Under the pieces are notes generated by a model. That model worked only from the letters and a program-made list of their open reading frames with translations, searched no databases and was not told the origin of the DNA. Below are positions 8,854-30,983 of a stretch of 64,000 nucleotides of DNA, piece by piece. Within the stretch, counting starts at the first letter, position 1. Each line of letters starts with the position of its first letter. Source of the stretch: Gemmata massiliana (GTDB lineage: Bacteria > Planctomycetota > Planctomycetia > Gemmatales > Gemmataceae); NCBI RefSeq assembly GCF_901538265.1, contig NZ_LR593886.1, forward strand, positions 7,461,738 to 7,525,737, written 5' to 3'. Both the position numbers and the translations under genes were made by a program.

Positions 8854-9600
8854 ATGCGGGCGATTCTGAGCGACGTTCACGGCAACATTGAGGCGCTCGA
8901 CGCGGTCCTCGCCGACATCGCGCGGCTCCCGGTGTCGTCCGTCACGAGCTTGGGCGACATCGTGGGCTACGGCCCGAACCCGATCGAGTGCGTCGAGCGG
9001 GCGATGACCTGGAACCTCAACATTCTGGGCAACCACGACCACGCGGTCCTGTTCGACCCGTTCGGGTTCAGCCCGACCGCGGAAAAGGCCGCGCTCTGGA
9101 CCCGCGCGGTCCTGGAGAGCGCCCGGCGCGACGACATGTGGGCGTTCCTCTCCGAGCGCCCCAAGCAGTCCCGCGACGGCGCGTTCCTCTTCGTCCACGG
9201 GTCCGCTCGCAGTCCTACCAACGAGTACGTCTTCCCCGAGGACGTTTACAACGTCACGAAGATGACGAAGATCGGCGAGCAGATCGAGCGCTACTGCTTC
9301 GCGGGGCACACGCACGTCCCCGGCGTGTTCATCGAGCCGGAACCGGGCGCCCAGTGGCAGTTCCTCTCCCCGGAAGAGATCGACTACACCTGGCGCCTCG
9401 ACGACCGCAAGACGATCGTGAACGTCGGCTCGGTGGGCCAGCCGCGCGACGCGAACTGGCGCGCGTGCTACGTGACGCTCGACGGGCTCAACTTGGTCTT
9501 CCGGCGCGTACAATACGACGTGGAGAAGACCGTGGCGAAAATCTACTCGGTGCCCGAATTAAACGACTTCCTCGGCGACCGATTGCGCGAGGGTCGGTAA
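8854..9600 (+). CDS. Calcineurin-like metallophosphoesterase (YfcE/ApaH-type)
   Basis: This is a 248-residue dinuclear-metal phosphoesterase. The ATG at 8854 begins directly with the first metal motif SDVHGNIEALDAVL, followed by GDIVGYGPNP, LGNHDHA, a later His in FVHGSARSP and the terminal FAGHTHVPG motif, all characteristic of the family. The longer open frame upstream runs through the repeat block and is not coding. Members hydrolyse phosphodiesters or dinucleoside polyphosphates; the substrate here is unknown. It is 14 bases ahead of ackA, so it is probably cotranscribed with the phosphoketolase pathway genes. Confidence 0.9.
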   Translation: MRAILSDVHGNIEALDAVLADIARLPVSSVTSLGDIVGYGPNPIECVERAMTWNLNILGNHDHAVLFDPFGFSPTAEKAALWTRAVLESARRDDMWAFLSERPKQSRDGAFLFVHGSARSPTNEYVFPEDVYNVTKMTKIGEQIERYCFAGHTHVPGVFIEPEPGAQWQFLSPEEIDYTWRLDDRKTIVNVGSVGQPRDANWRACYVTLDGLNLVFRRVQYDVEKTVAKIYSVPELNDFLGDRLREGR

Positions 9601-27232: not shown

Positions 27233-27937
27233 TCATTGGCGAACTACTAACTCGAAGCAGGCTTCGAGTTGCCTTGTTGCTTCATCGGGATTGCAGTCAG
27301 CTCTCTCTGGGAACGAAATCCGCAGTTCTCGCAAGTCGCGAAGTGCGTCGGGTAGGAGTAACGCTTTGACCATCGCCTGTCGCATGCTCATGTGCGACAG
27401 GTCTAAAACTCGTATTTTCTGGGTAAACGCCGAGTGAACGAATTTGTCCAAACACTGATCGTCGCTATCTTGCCATTCCGAATCGGCACCGAGTGATAAA
27501 GACACCTTGCGAAGTTGTTTCGATATGGGCGACTCGGCCAACCAAGCCAGATCACTGACATTTAACAAGCGCACTTCACCTATCAAGAACCCGGCCCAAT
27601 AATTTGCGATTTCCTCAATTTGCTGATCTCCAAGAACCACATCTGTTCTTAGGAAACCTCGTTCAAAGTGAATCACATCTATCCAATTCAATTCAAGTGA
27701 ACTCGCTAGCGACCAGTCATCGTATAGCCGGTTCCACACGCGACCGATCTCTTCCCACAGCCGATTTGCTTCGTCGCTCCACAGCTTTTCGTGGGCCGCA
27801 GCACACTGTAATCGGATGAACTGCGCGTAATCTTCTTGTCCGTGCTCTTCGAGCCAGTCCGCGTACACCAGTCGCGGAGTATCGTCGCCGGGGTTGTCGA
27901 AGATCGCGTCGAGGAACGCATCGGCTTCGGGGTGCAT
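27233..27937 (-). CDS. TIGR02996-domain hypothetical protein (LRR-like C-terminus)
   Basis: From the ATG at 27937 the protein has 234 residues. Its first ~45 residues are a TIGR02996 domain (ADAFLDAIFDNPGDDTPRLVYADWLEEHGQED). The rest has Leu-rich stretches reminiscent of irregular leucine-rich repeats (IRVLDLSHMSMRQAMVKALLL, DLRELRISF). Its base composition is clearly more AT-rich than its neighbours, which may mark recent acquisition. The open frame extending upstream to 28057 runs through a remnant of an acetyltransferase gene and is not part of it. Confidence 0.7.
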   Translation of the reverse strand: MHPEADAFLDAIFDNPGDDTPRLVYADWLEEHGQEDYAQFIRLQCAAAHEKLWSDEANRLWEEIGRVWNRLYDDWSLASSLELNWIDVIHFERGFLRTDVVLGDQQIEEIANYWAGFLIGEVRLLNVSDLAWLAESPISKQLRKVSLSLGADSEWQDSDDQCLDKFVHSAFTQKIRVLDLSHMSMRQAMVKALLLPDALRDLRELRISFPERADCNPDEATRQLEACFELVVRQ

Positions 27938-27950
27938 TGCGGGCTCCGAT

Positions 27951-28025
27951 GCATCACACTTCCACGGTGCGGCGGCAGGTTCGGTGCTGGCAAACGTACC
28001 GGAAGCCAATGCGATCGTAAACCGG
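27951..28025 (-). pseudogene. Remnant of the 3' end of a GNAT acetyltransferase gene
   Basis: Read on the minus strand this stretch gives VYDRIGFRYVCQHRT and a stop, matching the last residues of the intact GNAT protein at 30201 (VYERIGFRYVCQHRT). At DNA level 27977-28025 matches 30224-30272 at 47 of 49 positions in direct orientation. Weaker similarity continues past the stop codon. Only this fragment is present; the rest of the gene is missing. Confidence 0.8.
27977..28025. repeat. Left copy of 49-bp direct repeat flanking the AlkB-like pair
   Basis: This 49-base segment is 47/49 identical and in the same orientation as 30224-30272. The two copies bracket 2.2 kb containing both AlkB-like genes. 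The copy is the displaced 3' end of the GNAT gene. Confidence 0.85.
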
Positions 28026-28053
28026 CCTGAGCCGTCCACCCGCCGCTCGGGCT

Positions 28054-28911
28054 TCAATCATTCCCTTCCGTCACGGTCGCTTGGCCACGGTCAAGGTTTT
28101 CGTGCATGACGACTGGCGCGGAGCGCAAATTCTCAACGGTTTCGGGTGGCATCAGATCACTCTCGCTGATGGTGTACGTAACCCGAGGATAAGTGAAGTC
28201 CGTTTCATTGTTCTCTCGGCGCCGCAGGTGGTAAAACTCGCGCTGTTGTTCGTCGTCGGCCAACGTCAGTCGCACGTCACCTGGGAAGTACACATGCTCG
28301 CCGCGAAACCGCACAAAGGTCTTCGATGTTCGGAAGGTGATGCCCAGCCACTGGTTCTCGGGCGTTCGAGTGGATGTATCCAGCACGATCTTGTGCTTGA
28401 GCCACCGATTCGCATCAACGGAGAACACGATGGCACTGTTGTGAGTGAGGGGGATCTCGATACTATCAGCGCCGCCCTCCTTCAATTCGACGATCAGCTT
28501 CCTCGACGGGTGCGCGGGCTCGGGGTGTTTGTAGCAGGAAAAAAGAGCGATGAACGACCCGTCGGCCAGGTCCAGGGCTTGGTCGGAATGACTGCCCATA
28601 GTGGTGTAAGCACTCGTGTAGGTTTCGATGAGCGCGTTGTTGAAGCCGACCGGAAGCGCCGCACGTTGTTGAATCTGCTGTGCCAACCACTCGTGTACTG
28701 ACCGGAAGTGCTGTGCCGGGGCGCTGTACCGGGTGGTGGTGCGTACCAGAGGGATGCCACCCGTCTCGTCGGTCATTACCAACACGGCCCCCTGCCGGCC
28801 CTTTCCCACCACTTCAAACTGAACCGATCCGAGCAGTTCCTCAAACAGATTGCCTTCGGTATGCAAGGCATACGAGCAGACCTCGTCCGTCAGTTTAGAT
28901 CCGGGGGGCAA
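28054..28911 (-). CDS. AlkB-like 2OG-Fe(II) oxygenase, second of a tandem pair
   Basis: This 285-residue protein starts at a TTG at 28911, overlapping the preceding gene by 17 bases, with GGGAG upstream. It shows the AlkB-type oxygenase signature: FNNALIETYTSAYTTMGSHSD with iron ligands H108 and D110, the third ligand H173 in NRWLKHKIV, and R194 in LGITFRTSK for 2-oxoglutarate. AlkB-family enzymes oxidatively remove alkyl groups from nucleic acids or proteins. The substrate here is unknown. The same pattern and spacing (H to R +21) occur in the upstream gene, so they are paralogues. Confidence 0.72.
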   Translation of the reverse strand: MPPGSKLTDEVCSYALHTEGNLFEELLGSVQFEVVGKGRQGAVLVMTDETGGIPLVRTTTRYSAPAQHFRSVHEWLAQQIQQRAALPVGFNNALIETYTSAYTTMGSHSDQALDLADGSFIALFSCYKHPEPAHPSRKLIVELKEGGADSIEIPLTHNSAIVFSVDANRWLKHKIVLDTSTRTPENQWLGITFRTSKTFVRFRGEHVYFPGDVRLTLADDEQQREFYHLRRRENNETDFTYPRVTYTISESDLMPPETVENLRSAPVVMHENLDRGQATVTEGND

Positions 28912-30118
28912 GGTAATCTCCCGTGTTCATGCTGAAGGGGAACCGGTCGCCGTAATCGATGAAGGCCTGGGTTCTGTTCTCCTCGGCGTACAACGTGCGT
29001 AGTTCGTTCATGCCCTCGGGCGTGGGCGGTTCCAGTTGTGTCAGCTTCCCGTCCGTTTTGAGGAACGTGTTCCCGTCCTTGTGGACCGTCTCGGTACTCG
29101 AACAGCGGACCACGTACCCCAGTCGGGTCGGGAGCAACCCGGCGTCCAGCGTCGAGGACCGGATCTCGTGCGTGTACAGCCGGTTCGTGGACAGTGGCAT
29201 GAAGAACACGGAGCCGGGGTACAGAGTCAGGGTGAACTGAGGGGGGAAAGCCACCCCAGAGTGTTCCGTGATCGGCTCTTTGAGACGGAAGTGGAGCTTG
29301 GTCAGCCCGCTGACGCCTTTGTAGCCGTAATCAAATGGGTCTTCGGTCAGGGGGCACAACTTGTCGAGTCGGTCGTAGAAGGTGCAGAAGGCCATGATGC
29401 CGTTGACCGGCATGTCCTTGGTCTTGTCCGCGTGCGCCGAGATCCGGGCCTTGGACTGCTTCCGCTCCGCGTCCGCGGGGGTATTGTGGTAGACCTGCGC
29501 CAGAACGTGGTTCAGCGGCGCTTGTCCCTCGAAGATAACAGCCGCCTCCCGATTCAGGGCGTCGACGATGCTCCGGTCGGTCGCGCGAAAGTTCTCGGTC
29601 GGCCCCGAGAGGTTCGTGGAGCACCGGAGCAGGCGGAAGTGCAACCCGTCGCAGTCCCGCTCGACGGGCGTCAGATAAATCCCGGTGCGGTGAGCCGTCC
29701 CGGGCTTAGTGGATTCCGTGAGGGACTGGAATGTGTGCTCCGCGCAGATCCGGTTGAAATGATCGGCGCCCGGGTCGAAAAAGCGCCGGTAGTACACCCC
29801 GGCGCCATACACGCGGACTGGTACCCGACCTCGGTCCGCGAGCGACCAGATCTTGCCGTCGTCACCCTCGCTGTACCCGTGCGAAAGCTCCCTGACAACG
29901 AACACCCGCTCGGCCGCACTGAGGTCGTGGCCATTGACTTGGGACACATCACCGCACAGGTAAACGGTCTTCTGGGAAAGTTTGAGCAAGCCAGACGAAA
30001 GATCGGCGGCGGTGATCACAGACCCGCAAAAATCCCTGATCGAGCCTTCGTCTTTTAACGTGGATGGTGCGGCCAGGATGTTATTTGCACCGAGGATGCG
30101 AGCTTCCGTTGTTTGCAT
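28895..30118 (-). CDS. AlkB-like 2OG-Fe(II) oxygenase, first of a tandem pair
   Basis: About 407 residues are encoded from the ATG at 30118. The C-terminal half has PLNHVLAQVYHN, then ISAHADKTKD with ligands H229 and D231, a third ligand H317 in NRLYTHEIRS and R338 in RLGYVVRCS, the same order and spacing as the downstream gene. The first ~150 residues have no match I recognise and could be a substrate-recognition domain. The open frame upstream of 30118 overlaps the GNAT gene and is not used. The gene lies inside a 49-bp direct-repeat pair, and its overlap with the next gene implies coupled expression. Confidence 0.68.
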   Translation of the reverse strand: MQTTEARILGANNILAAPSTLKDEGSIRDFCGSVITAADLSSGLLKLSQKTVYLCGDVSQVNGHDLSAAERVFVVRELSHGYSEGDDGKIWSLADRGRVPVRVYGAGVYYRRFFDPGADHFNRICAEHTFQSLTESTKPGTAHRTGIYLTPVERDCDGLHFRLLRCSTNLSGPTENFRATDRSIVDALNREAAVIFEGQAPLNHVLAQVYHNTPADAERKQSKARISAHADKTKDMPVNGIMAFCTFYDRLDKLCPLTEDPFDYGYKGVSGLTKLHFRLKEPITEHSGVAFPPQFTLTLYPGSVFFMPLSTNRLYTHEIRSSTLDAGLLPTRLGYVVRCSSTETVHKDGNTFLKTDGKLTQLEPPTPEGMNELRTLYAEENRTQAFIDYGDRFPFSMNTGDYLAPRI

Positions 30119-30200
30119 TGGGATGCACCCGCGCTCAGTTGGACCCGTCCGATTAGAAATAACGACATCCCCGGAGATTCGCTGAATCGCTTTCCGCGCG

Positions 30201-30983
30201 TCACGCTTCCGTGGGTGCGGCGTAGGTTCGGTGCTGGCAAACGTACCGGAAGCCGATGCGCTCGTAAACCGGGATGCTCTTCGGGCCGGACCGCAGGGTC
30301 GCGTTCGTGCAGCCCCGCGTGGCAGCGTGAGCGAGAGCCGCACGCGACACCGCTTCGCCGTAGCGCCGACCGCGATACCCTTCCAGCGTCGCGACGCCCC
30401 ACAACACCGCCGTGGTGCCGTTCCGCGAGTAGCCGGCCGCAGTCACGTCGACGCCGTCAACCGAACCGACGAACAGCGCGATGTCCGAATCGAGCGCGAA
30501 CTCGAGCGACGGAACCATGAGGTCCGCCATCTCGGGCGGCGCCTGAAACGCGGCAGAGGTAATCGTTTTGTACGCCGTGGCGTCGGGCAAATTTTGAGCG
30601 AAGCGAACGACCAACTCCGGTCTCTCGGCAGCACGCGCATCGATTTCCTTCAGCACGTAAGCCGGCTCGTCTTCGGCAACGGTCCAGCCGCGTGCGCGTA
30701 ACTCCGCTTCCATTGGGTGCTCGGCGTCGCCCTCAACGAGAATCCCCCACCCCTGTTCACTCCCCGCAAAAAACGCGCGAGCAACCGGAAGGAGTTCGTC
30801 CAGCGCCGGCGCGGCGCTGTGCAACACAGAAGCGAAGTTGAACCCGGGACCGGGTAGTACACTCGCCACGAACGAGACGCCGTTCCACTCTCGGAAACGC
30901 CCCTGCGCGAAGTGTTTCAGGTAGGGCGGCTCGGCGAGACACAGAGCCGTGTGCGCGATGTCCCGGTCCGTTGGCTGCGGCAT
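30201..30983 (-). CDS. GNAT-family N-acetyltransferase
   Basis: The 260-residue protein has a C-terminal GNAT domain. The acetyl-CoA-binding motif A is VATLEGYRGRRYGEAVSRAAL, and the last strand-helix is VYERIGFRYVCQHRTY. The N-terminal ~120 residues are a less conserved domain (FVASVLPGPGFNFASVLH) seen in two-domain GNAT proteins. The acceptor is unknown. It starts 37 bases after the helicase stop on the same strand, so the two are probably cotranscribed. Its 3' end is duplicated downstream of the AlkB-like pair. Confidence 0.85.
   Translation of the reverse strand: MPQPTDRDIAHTALCLAEPPYLKHFAQGRFREWNGVSFVASVLPGPGFNFASVLHSAAPALDELLPVARAFFAGSEQGWGILVEGDAEHPMEAELRARGWTVAEDEPAYVLKEIDARAAERPELVVRFAQNLPDATAYKTITSAAFQAPPEMADLMVPSLEFALDSDIALFVGSVDGVDVTAAGYSRNGTTAVLWGVATLEGYRGRRYGEAVSRAALAHAATRGCTNATLRSGPKSIPVYERIGFRYVCQHRTYAAPTEA
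30224..30272. repeat. Right copy of 49-bp direct repeat, inside the intact GNAT gene
   Basis: This copy lies within the last codons of the intact GNAT gene, ending 23 bases before its terminal base at 30201. It differs from the left copy at two positions. Confidence 0.85.

Follow-up and report, generated by a model that had tools for sequence, protein, structure and literature searches.

On the minus strand of the window, the 64,000-nucleotide stretch of the Gemmata massiliana genome that was analysed, a GNAT acetyltransferase gene is followed in order by two overlapping genes, A and B, by a remnant of the 3′ end of the GNAT gene, and by a gene with a TIGR02996 domain (Table 1). A and B encode AlkB-like proteins. 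Their open reading frames (ORFs) share 17 nt, stop codon included, with B starting on a TTG within the 3′ end of A. The two genes form an unnamed, widespread, and obligate AlkB-like pair, and their presence here is a well-defined, real insertion. NCBIfam has no family for either protein, and a search of open-licence PubMed Central full text (preprints excluded) returned no paper recognisable by its title or abstract as describing the pair.

Table 1. Features at the insertion locus, in positions of the window
Feature	Position	Strand	Description and evidence
Gene A	28895..30118	-	407-aa AlkB-like Fe(II)/2-oxoglutarate oxygenase paralogue (putative); motifs, weak Pfam match, profile match to B
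Gene B	28054..28911	-	285-aa protein with a predicted AlkB fold; begins on a TTG within the 3′ end of A; structure model, residues
Inserted segment, 2,172 bp	28026..30197	no strand	Missing from five relatives (blastn)
Left 75-bp repeat	27951..28025	-	Remnant of the GNAT 3′ end beside the TIGR02996 gene; 67/76 to G009
Right 75-bp repeat	30198..30272	-	3′ end of the intact GNAT gene; 73/75 to G009
GNAT acetyltransferase gene	30201..30983	-	Intact, insertion target; PF00583 above its cut-off
TIGR02996-domain gene	27233..27937	-	Next gene after GNAT in the relatives with an empty site

Insertion at the end of a GNAT gene

The initial annotation had placed the two genes between 49-bp direct repeats. 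These are found at 27977-28025 and 30224-30272, with two mismatches (47/49 identical), and they are the core of a longer, 75-nt repeat whose copies share 83% identity when aligned without gaps and 67 of 76 positions when gaps are allowed. The right copy had been read as the 3′ end of an intact GNAT gene, and this holds, as that gene passes the PF00583 cut-off. The left copy, described as an amputated GNAT end, is also the genome's second, weak GNAT match, and lies just upstream of the TIGR02996 gene. As had also been said, the space between the repeats holds essentially two genes and no visible integrase: the 2,172-bp insert contains A and B only, and because they fill it there is no room for an integrase or a transposase. 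An inverted pair of 72% identity spans the insert, but it is not in register at the insert ends and was taken as chance.

Empty sites in related Gemmata genomes had been proposed as a check, and the comparison was positive. A GNAT search of 19 genomes of the genus gave matches in seven, namely the window's own genome, five others with a full-length gene (G009, G012, G016, G002, and G006) and one with a partial match (G004), and gave none in the remaining 12. The GNAT gene of each of these five full-length relatives runs without interruption into a TIGR02996 gene that starts about 20-35 bp after it. When the window region is aligned by blastn to G009 and G012, two collinear blocks appear, which share exactly 75 bp in the relative but have 2,172 bp between them in the window; G016, G002, and G006 give a matching insertion pattern with shorter overlaps of 59-61 bp. 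Since the matching stretch of about 75 bp is present once, at the uninterrupted site, in these relatives, the repeats of the window are not chance. The right copy remains near the empty site of G009 (73/75, against 609/711 for the GNAT body), while the left remnant is more diverged (67/76), as expected of a functionless copy. The pair of the window is an insertion at the 3′ end of a GNAT gene with a 75-bp duplication. Such a duplication could perhaps have come from a staggered break that was filled in and then closed by end joining. The TIGR02996-domain gene next to it belongs to a large family, with 76 matches in the Gemmata massiliana genome.

Spread and boundaries of the gene pair

GTDB genomes were scanned with a profile of A, and the best 80 of 166 confirmed stretches were fetched; with G008, G014, and the window, these make up the 83 loci compared here, in which B rows were cut at the first stop before alignment, including the B of L082. 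B comes after A in all 80 fetched loci. Both genes were found in the same four of 59 planctomycete genomes, and six carriers searched with the B profile had one B each. B is in the +1 frame relative to A in 82/83 loci, and the remaining one, L077, is a fusion. By alignment, the first codon of B is TTG in 62 loci, GTG in 15, ATG in four, CTG in one, and ATC in one, the last being the fusion. The B frame is open merely 5-7 codons upstream in 41 of 42 inspected loci, and GGGAGA-like purines stand just before the start, a pattern in keeping with coupled translation. A programmed frameshift from A into B was rejected on account of the closed frame, the one other inspected locus being a fusion. A single A-B fusion protein occurs in three genomes: the Obscuribacterales bin L077 and the cyanobacteria L171 and L172, which are two of the three cyanobacterial carriers (386 genomes searched). 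At the other end of the pair, the C-terminal ~29 codons of the window's B (28054-28135) are not conserved, and several other loci (L061, L052, and L080 among them) likewise end B with a stop outside its conserved end. A third gene, of 165 aa, stands upstream of A in G008 and G005 only among the compared loci (L034:5853-6350(+) and L035:6032-6529(-)); it is 89% identical between the two and has no Pfam, PADLOC, or PHROG match.

The pair is patchily distributed. It was found in four of 19 genomes of the genus and in none of the other 40 planctomycete genomes of that search, in one of 392 planctomycetes (the window's own genome), in 14 of 199 Streptomyces, and in 3/386 cyanobacteria. Carriers among the best 80 of the 166 stretches are mostly Streptomyces, Actinomadura, Kitasatospora, and their relatives; the others are cyanobacteria (L039, L044, and L091), the Obscuribacterales bin, and the planctomycete G005 (L038). 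The pair was also matched in three plasmid records, of which two are from Embleya and one, of 11.9 Mb, is from Nonomuraea. The tree, which covers 45 of the 83 loci, groups the window with the other planctomycetes, the cyanobacteria, and the Obscuribacterales copy (100/99). Within it, G005, G008, Obscuribacterales, and cyanobacteria form a clade from which the window and G014 are excluded (100/99), so that the Gemmata copies do not make up a single clade. A branch of the tree sets the Actinomycetota apart. The guanine-cytosine (GC) content of the pair is under that of its flanks in 79/83 loci, and above it in the three cyanobacteria and in L077. The pair is not special to the GNAT site or to the genus, and is a widely scattered two-gene unit.

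By their shared flanks, the 83 loci fall in about 68 contexts. Eight loci have less than 2 kb on one side, which could hide a shared context, and 61 contexts remain among the other 75 loci if L069 and L080 are counted apart; these two share 6 kb of left flank and make one context. The most widespread flanking ORF family among the matches listed is present at 12/83 loci. The edges of homology are sharp. In 654 of 654 pairs of loci from different contexts with more than 84% identity, the right edge falls at most 38 bp past codon 256 of B, and the left edge has a median of 29 bp before A. With identity above 90%, right edges are at most 32 bp in 25/25 different-context pairs; same-context pairs above 84% (n=15) have right edges up to 5,239 bp. 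A DNA search of 392 Streptomyces with L041 found at least 33 other genomes with the pair, each with a match confined to the stretch between about 28 bp before A and the end of B, limits that are set by the junctions of L041 itself. When eight close copies are aligned, most have a common upstream region of about 190 bp, and they diverge soon after the B stop, in several cases within a GAGGG...CCCTC stem. Judged by its sequence, the unit looks like a promoter region, A, B, and a terminator-like stem. No recombinase, general terminal repeats, or general target duplication was found for it among the 83 loci.

Strong flanking repeats were seen at three of the 83 loci (L001, score 99; L096, 86; L060, 73; control maximum, 37). 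Long target duplications were considered as a general mark of the unit and rejected, as the repeat of L096 is of a dispersed, palindromic type and that of L060 is a gapped non-coding match. The former, in Catellatospora, flanks the pair left and right with 65-bp copies that contain a palindrome (L096:5693-5757 and 8933-8996). Two Streptomyces, L041 and L169 (G106), have the pair at adjacent intergenic sites of one chromosomal region, with about 4 kb between the two sites, and this may be a hotspot. No simple empty site could be assigned to G106, since its left flank fails to align with G110 there.

Folds and active sites of A and B

The initial annotation had called A and B tandem paralogues, and their family profiles do align (Prob 96, E 4e-9). 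The likeness in motifs is also as it described: both have HxD...H...R with a spacing of 21 from H to R, a shared N-x2-L-x3-Y segment, and LGxxxR. Against PF13532, the window's B scores 24.6 bits (E 3.5e-5), under the gathering score of 31.2, a threshold that P0005, a natural fusion, clears at 46 bits. Of the B family, 41/43 rows match this Pfam entry with E no higher than 1 (best 2.8e-9), as do 30/43 rows of the A family (best 1.8e-4). Structure prediction had been suggested for both proteins, and for B it gives an AlkB fold with its double-stranded beta helix. The AlphaFold2 model of B is good, with a predicted local distance difference test (pLDDT) score of 83 and a predicted template modelling (pTM) score of 0.83. 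Its best Foldseek matches in the PDB are ALKBH2 and ALKBH3 (E 3e-10), and it aligns with ALKBH2 over 176 residues (Z 16.9, root-mean-square deviation (rmsd) 2.7) and with E. coli AlkB at Z ~14.4. The B profile also matched ALKBH2 in the PDB, at E 0.0014. On this modelling, B is an AlkB-fold protein.

A has an N-terminal extra region of about 100 residues. Residues ~10-90 are the sole well-modelled part of the protein (pLDDT near 80), and in structure comparison they resemble receiver-like alpha/beta domains only weakly (Z at most 5.7), a likeness that we do not interpret. As the model of A is poor, its putative AlkB fold rests on the profile match to B, together with the weak Pfam matches.

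The active-site residues are invariant in 83/83 rows. In A these are H229-x-D231, H317, and R338, with R332 completing an R-x5-R motif (R332-x5-R338); in B they are H108-x-D110, H173, and R194. The HxD...H iron triad is thus present in both proteins alike. R-x5-R is kept in A, and its first arginine is replaced in B by Trp188, again in 83/83 rows, which aligns opposite R332 of A in the profile comparison. For this reason B is filed as an AlkB-fold homologue and not as a canonical AlkB enzyme. In ALKBH5, the two arginines of R-x5-R are reported to differ in role, the first binding 2-oxoglutarate (2OG) by its C5 carboxylate and the second adjoining the iron (PMC3985658). The same text places the active-site acid at Asp135 in AlkB, Glu175 in ALKBH2, Glu195 in ALKBH3, and Glu234 in FTO, and reports that Asp135Ala AlkB loses activity on 1-methyladenine (m1A) and gains it on 1-methylguanine (PMC3985658). 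By our own count of the correspondence, this acid lies four residues after the histidine of HxD (H+4), where A has T233 and B has A112, each in 83/83 rows. Neither protein has an acid there, which argues against standard repair of m1A and 3-methylcytosine (m3C), with the limit that the acid of ALKBH5 lies elsewhere, so that another position is possible. Both genes are under purifying selection, with dN/dS (the ratio of nonsynonymous to synonymous substitution rates) of 0.17-0.40 in eight chosen pairs.

Possible roles and related systems

A model can be proposed in which A and B join as subunits in one asymmetric AlkB-type iron oxygenase, made together by coupled translation since B starts inside the end of A, acting on nucleic acid, and spread as a bare operon. 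We regard this reading as about evenly balanced between right and wrong. A would be the catalytic subunit, with a canonical Fe(II)/2OG site. B, which has kept the iron ligands and lost the arginine for the far carboxylate of 2OG, would be a regulatory or substrate-holding partner, or would use its pocket differently. The fusions and the one-to-one operon argue for a single A:B oxygenase, and the nucleic-acid substrate follows from the fold alone. This substrate would probably be a modified base, and since the H+4 acid is missing in both proteins it would not be read in the classical AlkB way. The operon may give a conditional advantage and be passed on horizontally as a bare transcription unit. 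More tentative, and on balance doubtful, is the stricter form of this proposal, in which the A:B oxygenase is obligate and asymmetric, its substrate is unlike those of known AlkB enzymes, and the bare operon, with its sharp right end, crosses phyla without a recombinase of its own.

Several observations weigh against the two-subunit reading. No second subunit of this kind is known to us for AlkB enzymes. The window's A scores 14.9 bits against PF13532 (E 0.032), also under the gathering score, its profile matched no AlkB structure in the PDB, and its AlphaFold2 model is poor (pLDDT 43, pTM 0.33, from 43 rows that are too alike). Among the matches listed for the 83 loci, no neighbour or context points to a substrate. 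As to the bare operon, fast intergenic divergence can mimic sharp edges, a risk that is smaller for the 25 pairs with more than 90% identity. The insert of L041 relative to the empty-type G110 and G138 is about 3 kb and not the pair alone, including about 0.9 kb upstream of the pair that has no match in the compared loci; this rules out L041 as a bare insertion. Finally, the 75-bp flanking duplication of the window is a single case: among the 83 loci, L096 and L060 alone have other strong repeats beside the pair, so that long repeats do not characterise the unit in general.

Other explanations were weighed on the same evidence. A and B could be two ordinary, independent AlkB enzymes for m1A and m3C repair, neighbours by chance and useful against the alkylating natural products of soil bacteria. 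The closeness of B's fold to ALKBH2 and ALKBH3, the iron triad kept in both proteins, and the many antibiotic-producing genera among the carriers are in keeping with this, and self-resistance to alkylating products through DNA repair has been described for glycosylases (PMC9040887, PMC8626424). However, the active-site acid is Thr in A and Ala in B throughout, B is without the 2OG-binding arginine, and the pairing and fusion tell against independence, making this explanation unlikely. A patchy, often transferred two-gene unit with changing neighbours, carried by large-genome and often multicellular bacteria, would also suit an anti-phage or other conflict system, with the pair oxidising or unmasking modified bases in nucleic acid that invades the cell. 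We find this rather improbable: A, B, and P0003 matched no PADLOC family (E up to 1), there was no PHROG match and no match in phage records or viral contigs, and no conserved defence neighbours appear among the matches listed.

2OG oxygenases are common in actinobacterial secondary metabolism, and the pair might instead be small-molecule oxygenases on an AlkB-like scaffold, for natural-product tailoring or for resistance by modification. While the loss of the nucleotide-reading acid would agree with this, no recurrent biosynthetic neighbours were seen among the matches listed, where the top flanking ORF family reaches 12/83 loci, and B groups by fold with nucleic-acid oxygenases, though fold does not show function; this too is rather improbable. 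The last alternative concerns the insertion itself, which the initial annotation had linked to integration into a gene end. The insertion with a duplicated GNAT 3′ end stands, as the empty sites show, and an element of the integrase/attachment-site (att) type is not supported, as no integrase is present and the site is not common to other carriers. A site-specific integrase acting in trans could still have placed a small element into the end of the GNAT gene, the repeats being its att sites, and an intact gene end on one side, a remnant on the other, and 47/49 identity in the core would all be expected. This is quite improbable, since the insert is without an integrase, the other carriers of the genus (G005, G008, and G014) have no GNAT match and hold the pair in other surroundings, loci elsewhere are in different contexts, other insertions lack the 49-bp core, and a search of the window's own genome with the repeat-to-repeat segment returned this place only.

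AlkB-type oxygenases are usually single proteins, and a conserved pair with one partner that lacks the 2OG arginine in all copies compared would be a natural test of AlkB regulation or of a division of labour. Its spread as a nearly bare unit of two genes, over about 68 contexts, also offers a compact case for studying how single operons cross phyla.

Compared with integrative elements found at gene 3′ ends, the locus has the same intact gene end, displaced remnant, and direct repeats made of the gene end; it differs in an insert of two enzyme genes only, without an integrase, at a site that other carriers do not share. The best matches of the B model in BFVD are giant-virus proteins predicted to be 2OG-Fe(II) oxygenases (Sylvanvirus A0A3G5AH29 and A0A3G5AH08, Klosneuvirus A0A1V0SK01), with template modelling scores normalised to the query of 0.58-0.64 vs 0.49-0.51 for the ALKBH2 rows that top the PDB list. 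Their identity to B is 17-18%, however, and no sequence relative of A or B was found in the viral contigs searched. FTO also aligns with the B model (Z ~15, rmsd 2.8, 184 aligned of 440), but it is one chain and has 12% sequence identity to B. With ALKBH2, ALKBH3, and E. coli AlkB, B shares the modelled double-stranded beta-helix fold, HxD...H, the arginine after the distal histidine, and the N-x2-L-x3-Y strand, and A shares the same motif set together with R-x5-R. The pair differs from these enzymes in the absence of the H+4 acid from both proteins, in the tryptophan that B has for the 2OG-binding arginine, in the extra N-terminal region of A, and in being a two-gene unit with an overlap and natural fusions.

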